A stretch of 64,000 bases of DNA, from the NCBI RefSeq assembly GCF_003313385.1, contig NZ_QMHN01000005.1, positions 98,743 through 162,742 of the forward strand. Reading direction: 5' to 3'. The position numbers and the translations under genes are program-made. This DNA comes from Pedobacter chitinilyticus (lineage in GTDB: Bacteria; Bacteroidota; Bacteroidia; Sphingobacteriales; Sphingobacteriaceae). This document shows positions 30,379 through 49,561 of this stretch, piece by piece. The notes under the pieces were generated by a model. It made no database searches and was not told the DNA's origin. It saw only the letters and a list, made by a program, of their open reading frames with translations. How positions within the stretch are numbered: the first letter of the stretch is position 1; each line of letters opens with the position of its first letter.

Positions 30379-30981
30379 ATGGATAAAAAAGAAGTCCTAG
30401 CACAATACATGCCTCCAGCTGCGGCGCCTATTATTGCTAAATGGATTGACTATTTTCAGTGCGAATTTAAAATTTCAAAGAATCGAAGCACCAAACTAGG
30501 TGACTATCGACATCCATTTAAGGGAAACGGGCATAAAATATCAGTTAATAATGATTTAAATCCTTATGCTTTTTTAGTCACTACCGTCCATGAATTTGCG
30601 CATTTGTTGACTTGGAACGACCACAAGAATAAAGTAAAACCTCATGGTGCCGAATGGAAAAATAACTTCAAAAGGATGATGAAACCATTTTTCGATTTGG
30701 AGATTTTTCCAGCTGATGTTAACCAAGGAATAGTATCCTACTTAAACAATCCTGCAGCTTCCAGCTGTACTGATTTAAGATTGGCCCGTGCCCTTAAAAA
30801 ATACGATGTACAGGAAGAAACCCTGCATGTGGAGCAATTGCCCATCAACAGTGTATTCACTTTAAAAGATGGGCGTAAATTCCAAAAGGGAGAGCGAATT
30901 AGAAAGCGTTACCGTTGTACTTGTTTGGATAATGGGAAAATTTATCTTTTCAATCCCCTGGCAGAAGTTTATGCCGAATAG
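30379..30981 (+). CDS. SprT-like zinc metalloprotease-fold protein
   Basis: A 200-residue protein with the SprT-like domain: the zinc motif HEFAH at residues 71-75 and a third likely ligand His89 in KPHGAEWKNNFKRMM, as in SprT/Spartan. Its C-terminal part has RYRCTCLDNGKIYLFNPLAEV, a reduced version of the zinc-ribbon seen in longer SprT proteins. In eukaryotes, Spartan cleaves DNA-protein crosslinks; the bacterial function is uncertain. It overlaps the convergent XRE regulator gene by 13 bases at its 3' end. Confidence 0.85.
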   Translation: MDKKEVLAQYMPPAAAPIIAKWIDYFQCEFKISKNRSTKLGDYRHPFKGNGHKISVNNDLNPYAFLVTTVHEFAHLLTWNDHKNKVKPHGAEWKNNFKRMMKPFFDLEIFPADVNQGIVSYLNNPAASSCTDLRLARALKKYDVQEETLHVEQLPINSVFTLKDGRKFQKGERIRKRYRCTCLDNGKIYLFNPLAEVYAE

Positions 30982-31265
30982 GCGACCTGTTTCGCAAAGA
31001 GGGCCTCTTTGTCTTTTTGTGCTTTAATTAACCTCAGCGTAGTTGGGTTATTCAGATAGTGGTCGTACTCCATACACAAAATGAGATAGTGTAATTCAAA
31101 CCCGTAAAACACGGCAATAAGTTTGGCGGTATCAAGCCGTAACATCGTCTTGTCCTGCTCCAATTTAGAATAAGCAGATCTTTCCAAATTCAAAAATGTG
31201 GCAATATTTTCTTGCGTAACTCCCTTGTATTGTCTCAGCTTCTTTAAGATTTTACCAACATTCAT
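30969..31265 (-). CDS. XRE-family helix-turn-helix regulator
   Basis: A small DNA-binding protein (98 residues from MNVGKILKKL). The helix-turn-helix occupies about residues 5-60: ILKKLRQYKGVTQENIATFL and ERSAYSKLEQDKTMLRLDTA are typical of Cro/C1-type folds. The C-terminal extension (about 65-98) is charged and has no recognisable ligand domain. I start at 31265 because a -7-like box (TATATTTA, 31291-31298) would put the transcription start near 31284, downstream of the alternative start at 31289. A perfect dyad overlapping its promoter suggests autoregulation. It is convergent with, and overlaps, the SprT-like gene. Confidence 0.8.
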   Translation of the reverse strand: MNVGKILKKLRQYKGVTQENIATFLNLERSAYSKLEQDKTMLRLDTAKLIAVFYGFELHYLILCMEYDHYLNNPTTLRLIKAQKDKEALFAKQVAYSA

Positions 31266-31290: not shown

Positions 31291-31340
31291 TAAATATACG
31301 ACTTCATCAATACACAAAATGTGAAAAAAAGTCACATTTT
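31291..31340 (-). promoter_or_regulatory. XRE promoter with a perfect 9-bp operator dyad
   Basis: The dyad is AAAATGTGA (31316-31324), seven bases, then TCACATTTT (31332-31340). On the minus strand its right edge supplies TTTTG as a -33 element, about 16-17 bases before TATATTTA (31291-31298). Overlap with the -33 element is typical of a repressor operator. Confidence 0.55.
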
Positions 31341-31362
31341 CTCGTTAAGCACTGTAAATGAA

Positions 31363-31475
31363 TATATTTACGCCAATAAGACCATCATCTATAAATAACG
31401 CTCATTACAGGCCCTCGTCATTTAATTTAACGCTCTCTTTAAATAAATGTTACGAGGGCTTTACTCTTTTAAGAC
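31363..31475 (+). ncRNA. Candidate small RNA with a long hairpin, divergent from the XRE gene
   Basis: A plus-strand -7-like box TATATTTA at 31363-31370 is followed by a strong imperfect hairpin: GCCCTCGT (31411-31418) pairs with ACGAGGGC (31452-31459), and the inner CATTTAATTTAA pairs with TTTAAATAAATG after a two-base bulge, leaving a short loop. TTTACTCTTTT follows. A short RNA of about 90 bases ending in a terminator would explain this. No open frame is present. It could instead be a structured 3' region for the leftward E1 gene. Confidence 0.4.
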
Positions 31476-31479
31476 GTAA

Positions 31480-31495
31480 AGTGATGAAGATCACA
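31480..31495. promoter_or_regulatory. CRP/FNR-like palindrome
   Basis: AGTGATGAAGATCACA contains GTGAT-GAAG-ATCAC and fits the enterobacterial CRP half-site spacing (AGTGA, six bases, TCACA). It lies just beyond the stop of the E1 gene and 215 bases upstream of the XRE start. Whether a CRP-like protein uses it is unknown. Confidence 0.3.
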
Positions 31496-31513
31496 TTTAT
31501 AAAAAAAGCCCCT

Positions 31514-49113: not shown

Positions 49114-49561
49114 TTGTTAAAAGTGCCTTTATCTTTCTATTGGAGAGAGGTGTAAGAAGGATAGAAAGGGTTTTAGAAAAGCAAAAACAGAAGCTTTATC
49201 CAAATTCAGCCCTGCTGTTCGCTACAATCTTTTTGTCATTGCAACCTTTTAAACCTCGCAGGTTTTTAAAACCTGCGAGGTTTCTACCAGCAACCTATGC
49301 AACAAAAAGGATTTTTGCTGCCATCAGGTTTAATTGGCAATGCTTTTGCTGGTGGGCGGGGTTGCTTAGCACAAGCTTAGGTTGTATAGCCCTTTTTGCA
49401 GCGGCATCTTTTGGGCGCACGAAGTAAGCGCAAAAATACAGCGTAAAAAAGGACTGCGTTTTCATCGTCGCACTGTCATTGCGCTACAAGAAAATGGTTT
49501 TAAATAAACTGTGCCTAGTCACTAACTACTAGTTCCTGGCCACTAATTCCTAGCAACTATT
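49114..49561. other. Gap between der and rsgA, no gene seen
   Basis: The stretch holds a perfect palindrome at 49251-49283, then GC-richer filler up to 49440 and AT-rich filler (CACTAACTACTAGTTCC and similar) next to rsgA. An open frame over 49140-49427 crosses the palindrome and has no protein-like features, so I do not call it. Confidence 0.6.
49251..49283. repeat. Perfect palindrome with one-base centre
   Basis: AAACCTCGCAGGTTTT, one T, then the exact complement. It is the sister of the palindrome at 35301-35332, differing only at the central C/T-G/A pair (GCAGG against GTAGG, changed in both arms). Confidence 0.85.

Follow-up and report, generated by a model that had tools for sequence, protein, structure and literature searches.

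A predicted sponge RNA, divergent from an XRE regulator gene and carrying two sites antisense to a multicopy small-RNA family in Pedobacter

What might be the function of a short RNA that appears to be transcribed away from an XRE regulator gene in Pedobacter? The locus lies in a 64,000-nucleotide stretch of Pedobacter DNA (39% GC; piece G000:C6), the whole of which we refer to here as the window, and its gene order is feoA/feoB, a SprT-like gene (PF10263 match), the XRE gene, the hairpin region, and pdhAB; the feo and pdh names are assigned from the appearance of the protein sequences. The XRE protein matched PF01381 at 36.1 bits (cut-off, 23), which identifies it as an XRE/HTH_3 regulator; at the NCBIfam curated cut-offs it qualified neither as an RstR phage repressor (34.1 of 80 bits) nor as a Y4mF antitoxin (23.5 of 71.65 bits). 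The preliminary description of this locus had reported a long imperfect hairpin, a perfect dyad, and two -7-like boxes, and direct reading together with a repeat search reproduced the coordinates of them all. The features considered here are as follows.

30969 to 31265, minus strand: XRE/HTH_3 regulator gene, 98 amino acids (PF01381 match and eight orthologues)
31291 to 31298, minus strand: -7 box TATATTTA of the XRE promoter (from sequence)
31316 to 31340, no strand: perfect dyad AAAATGTGAAAAAAAGTCACATTTT, i.e., AAAATGTGA-N7-TCACATTTT, a candidate XRE operator touching both -33 regions
31363 to 31370, plus strand: -7 box TATATTTA of the rightward promoter, TAnnTTTG-like
31377 to 31470, plus strand: predicted sponge RNA of about 90 to 95 nt, its ends inferred (-7 box, hairpin, T-rich tail)
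31382 to 31403, plus strand: site 1, CCATCATCT-ATAAAT-AACGCTC (N6 centre), antisense to the 5' end of the small RNA except for its interrupted centre
31411 to 31459, plus strand: terminator-like hairpin enclosing site 2 (folding, covariation, repeat search)
31412 to 31437, plus strand: site 2, CCCTCGTCATTT-AAT-TTAACGCTCTC, likewise antisense to the 5' end of the small RNA
31460 to 31470, plus strand: T-rich tail TTTACTCTTTT (from sequence)

Judging from sequence, we consider it probable that the rightward transcript acts as a noncoding sponge for a multicopy family of small RNAs and that the shared dyad is where it and the XRE gene are repressed together. The family came to light in a BLAST search of the 248-bp region against its own genome, which returned a single full copy and several short matches to the piece 31412-31447. 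Reading of these matches revealed intergenic units consisting of a promoter, GAGAGCGTTAATTTAGATG, a GC-rich hairpin, and a T run. A repeat element was rejected as an explanation of the region, since there was only one full copy and the short matches (query positions 147-182) pointed to the small-RNA family.

Members of this family share the 5' end GAGAGCGUUAAUUUAGAUG, and seven exact copies were found in G000, the genome of the window, among them G000:C2:465291 (L042/L261). With up to two mismatches allowed, the family core was detected in all 40 genus genomes sampled, with between 2 and 15 places per genome; the reversed control gave 0 or 1 per strand. Among 301 family-level genomes it was found in 117 (69/69 within the genus and 48/232 outside it), and 72 of the 80 matches listed for the exact core in named genomes were from Pedobacter. 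The 19-nt core is followed by varied hairpins, in at least 171 distinct contexts. Most contexts have CGTTTATATAT upstream and an ACAATA/AAACAAT box ∼15 nt further up, an arrangement that looks like an ECF-type promoter; a minority have a TAnnTTTG promoter, so that the family comprises two promoter classes. Neither the hairpin region nor the partner family was matched by Rfam (including Pedo-repair, RF01715) at the gathering score: the sole match from 20 sources, among them 11 loci of the small RNAs and 7 of the sponge (L004 and L212-L217), was a Flavo-1 RNA elsewhere in L047, and small-RNA locus L042 had no match at E values up to 1. Another Flavo-1 RNA (RF01705; 52.9 bits) lies in the window itself, at 49204-49335 on the minus strand. 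Seven IMG/VR viral contigs (L312-L318) also carry the family core in exact form with a terminator-like hairpin downstream, some with a TATATTTG box, and these represent phage-borne copies.

Perfect antisense of the small-RNA 5' end would read CCCCATCATCTAAATTAACGCTCTC. Sites 1 and 2 both depart from it in their centres, which vary in length among the nine species that carry the locus (3 to 8 nt in site 1 and 2 to 3 nt in site 2), and no site is a perfect complement, the centre of site 2 in G151 still pairing by wobble. These interrupted centres may have been selected or may merely be free of constraint. The four flanking site blocks, by contrast with the freely varying spacers, paired with the small RNA in 279 of 279 cells across the nine species (261 Watson-Crick and 18 G-U), and the four variable columns all switched solely between Watson-Crick and G-U, with pairing kept on the plus strand. 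The block pattern was chosen by eye from the nine sequences, all of which match it, and its invariant letters are partly fixed by that choice. It served as the anchor because MAFFT alignment of the whole RNAs misplaced site 1.

Predicted duplexes with the 25-nt small-RNA 5' end reached -35.7 kcal/mol for site 2 in the window (-34.8 to -40.9 kcal/mol in the nine species) and -28.1 kcal/mol for site 1 (-23.8 to -29.8 kcal/mol). In 9/9 species the best duplex beat all 300 shuffles (z = -7.7 to -10.3). The best shuffle per species reached -22.8 to -29.0 kcal/mol, which puts site 2 far outside the shuffled range and site 1 alone at its edge; the opposite strand yielded duplexes of only -11.4 to -18.5 kcal/mol. 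Complementarity alone cannot prove an interaction, since common descent would make the antisense strand of any homologue complementary too.

When the family members retrieved from each of the nine genomes were compared, a canonical-promoter GATGATGGGG member was the strongest partner in every species. Selectivity appeared weak in G000, where three GATGGCGGGG members lay within 0.8 kcal/mol of the best partner. The canonical-promoter GATGATGGGG class was present in only 10 of 145 genomes, namely, the nine sponge carriers plus G033, whose XRE homologue is remote (49%) and which lacks a sponge. The resulting co-occurrence (Fisher P = 1.6e-13) is overstated, since the nine species are relatives and their counts are not independent. 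Elsewhere, the double-antiseed pattern occurred at 36 places in 119 genomes, compared with 6 for the reversed control. Six of the 36 were XRE loci, and the remaining places read were, by eye, mostly small-RNA antisense, coding sequence, or unrelated repeats. A locus on the minus strand of G000 (L225; G000:C3:573573) has two CGCTCTC words whose starts lie 13 nt from each other, with a strong terminator further down, and may be a second sponge in that genome. A count of seed sites around 597 start codons, made to look for target enrichment, gave nothing clear, the data being too few.

The linkage to the XRE gene was close. Matches to the XRE protein at an E value of 1e-12 or better were found in 16 of 145 genus genomes, and orthologues with 76 to 98% identity in 8 of the 144 other genomes. 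At all nine loci the feoB-sprT-XRE-pdhAB order was retained, together with site 1, site 2, the dyad, and the rightward -7 box. No sponge was seen at the loci read for XRE homologues of ∼52% identity or less, as judged from the upstream sequence (L005 and L222) or from there being no pair of antiseed words close to the gene (L218-L221 and L223). The dyad had at most one change in 9/9 species, and the rightward TAnnTTTG-like box followed at a constant spacing of 30 nt (dyad end to box end), while the XRE promoter box of the orthologues read TATCTTTA or TATATTTA. A search of the 64-kb window with up to three mismatches returned only the dyad itself; any match at all was obtained in 11 of 100 shuffles, and the dyad is thus not extreme by length alone. 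From the geometry, the dyad edges reach the probable -33 positions of both promoters, such that a single bound XRE dimer would shut both.

The hairpin proved to be conserved as well. Its outer arms (GCCCTCGT at 31411-31418 and ACGAGGGC at 31452-31459) pair at 8/8 positions and its 12-nt inner arms (31419-31430 and 31438-31449) at 83%, with the CGCTCTC of site 2 positioned in the loop. The plus strand folded at -20.9 kcal/mol versus a mean of -9.7 kcal/mol for 200 shuffles, none of which was as good (z = -4.4); the minus strand likewise folded (z = -3.8), as expected of an inverted repeat. A T-rich tail 3' of the stem was seen in six of eight species checked, with arms chosen by eye, and was weak in G088 and G164. 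In four species an extra closing stem brings the two ends together. Just beyond the hairpin, at window positions 31480-31499, lies a CRP-like palindrome, AAGTGATGAAGATCACATTT, which is near-identical in G133 and missing in G017.

That this pairing would be conserved in related genomes had been a prediction of the preliminary description, and it was borne out. RNAalifold analysis of the hairpins, aligned alone for eight of the nine sequences (G167 omitted), gave a common stem in which 6 of 12 pairs had changes on both sides and 92.6% of cells paired. The covariation score was 0.396, compared with 0.192 for shuffled alignments, and 0 of 500 shuffles reached it. Sliding the alignment by +1 preserved part of the score (0.238 versus 0.396) because the outer stem changes register between clades. 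A covariance search beside XRE homologues had likewise been named as a check. The model built from the eight hairpins found, in 145 genus genomes, eight strong matches (E = 7e-13 or better), all beside this XRE gene and all being its own training sequences. Some match at an E value of 0.05 was present in 47 of the 145 genomes, and 20 of the 22 weaker loci read were flagged as antisense to small-RNA genes. The locus of G167 scored 16.8 bits, with both sites kept, the stem changed, and the full hairpin not retained. No reading frame was conserved across species in the rightward RNA, nor was any further conserved element seen in it beyond the sites, hairpin, and promoter. The earlier proposal of a compact unit of regulator gene and short RNA thus gains good comparative support for its divergent RNA from the recurrence of the box, covarying hairpin, and dyad beside XRE orthologues; the sponge-like sites of that RNA had been missed.

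From the computed complementarity, its conservation, the RNA structure, the XRE linkage, and the fact that the genomes with the locus also have the partner, we infer a course of events that runs from transcription through in-cell binding, in a certain order of pairing, to a sponge effect under XRE control. As expected of a bacterial small-RNA sponge, the rightward RNA is predicted to bind the functional part of a small RNA encoded in the same genome; a promoter box, a hairpin, and a tail are the features that would bear on a second trait of sponges, production as a stable transcript. Site 1 would be open, and site 2 would present its antiseed CGCUCUC in the hairpin loop; both would bind the 5' end common to the family, chiefly with the GAUGAUGGGG member transcribed from a canonical TAnnTTTG promoter. 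The loop would contact the free 5' GAGAGCG first, pairing would then spread down the stem, and the small RNA would thereby be drawn away from the mRNAs that it targets. The divergent XRE protein, bound to the dyad, would repress both its own gene and the sponge, and lifting of this repression would raise sponge levels and lower small-RNA activity.

We favor sponging because it accounts for the two sites, the invariant pairing blocks, the restriction of changes to G-U, the free spacers, and the presence of the partner. The region could instead be a decayed minus-strand copy of a small-RNA gene, similar by descent and giving rise to no functional rightward RNA. Indeed, the minus-strand sequence, GAGAGCGTTAAATTAAATGACGAGGG, resembles family members, and the resemblance may reach slightly upstream. 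However, we regard this origin as unlikely, given two sites rather than one, kept in nine species with no nonpairing change in 279 cells, a minus strand that here lacks a following terminator-like T run, and conservation of both the covarying hairpin and the rightward promoter box. It is, in our estimate, quite unlikely that the RNA is an ordinary trans-acting small RNA directed at mRNAs, for which the family match would be secondary: antiseed words do occur in coding sequence too, one of them near a reading-frame start in G000 (L048), but at both sites the conserved blocks coincide exactly with the stretches pairing to the family 5' end, and the spacers vary freely.

Two further explanations appear very improbable to us. 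The hairpin might be a mere terminator between converging genes and the dyad a mere XRE operator, as the terminator-like shape, the T-rich tail, and the convergence of pdhAB on the hairpin would suggest; this leaves unexplained site 1, which is outside the hairpin, as well as the invariant loop and blocks. Control could also be reversed, with the small RNAs destroying a rightward RNA that has another job. Pairing is symmetric and silent on who controls whom, but against such a job stands the lack of a conserved reading frame or of any conserved element besides sites, hairpin, and promoter. As to the purpose of sponging, the RNA could guard against phage-made copies, since seven viral contigs carry the exact 19-nt core and a terminator-like hairpin. 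It is a speculative and rather unlikely extension that the XRE-controlled sponge polices phage-carried family copies and shields host mRNAs, its interrupted sites holding the small RNA without offering a long perfect duplex to RNase III.

In plant target mimicry, decoy sites pair at both ends around an interrupted centre (central bulge). The sites described here similarly pair at both ends around an interrupted centre; unlike in plants, no Argonaute is involved and the centre may be unconstrained. Among bacterial systems, FopS of Bacteroides thetaiotaomicron, in the available text (PMC11697453), likewise concerns small RNAs of Bacteroidota that occur in multiple copies and have a conserved seed at the 5' end, and it is an analogue of the partner family rather than of the sponge. 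Its consensus (R1') shares at most 6 nt with the Pedobacter family, as did 442 of 2,000 shuffles, so that the two are not the same by this measure, and the main text of that paper does not contain the words "sponge" and "decoy." A 2020 Bacteroides transcriptome paper mentions sponges in general in its available text (PMC7366714). A literature search, with most subscription papers and preprints outside its scope, did not return the family sequence and, by title and abstract start, returned no Pedobacter small RNA of this kind and no Bacteroidota sponge.

Sponges as such are already known. AgvB, the anti-sRNA of GcvB from an E. coli phage, is in the available text (PMC5286369) also a dedicated small RNA pairing with another small RNA; unlike this phage-borne example, the Pedobacter locus is chromosomal, between the sprT-like and pdhAB genes. 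According to the available text on Caulobacter crescentus (PMC12559287), CrfA is an experimentally proven noncoding RNA sponge that inactivates the sibling sRNAs SisA-D, and it resembles the present case in being a single noncoding RNA with a stem-loop directed against a core common to paralogous small RNAs. The Pedobacter RNA, a predicted case, differs from CrfA in phylum and sequence, in having two sites per RNA, and in its divergent XRE gene (PMC12559287). What would be new is the Bacteroidota host, the two sites, the divergent regulator, and a previously undescribed partner family in multiple copies. If the prediction is true, Bacteroidota have a sponge RNA that comes with a divergent regulator of its own, alongside a genus-wide multicopy small-RNA family, and the way in which a bacterium governs the combined output of numerous redundant small RNAs becomes directly testable.
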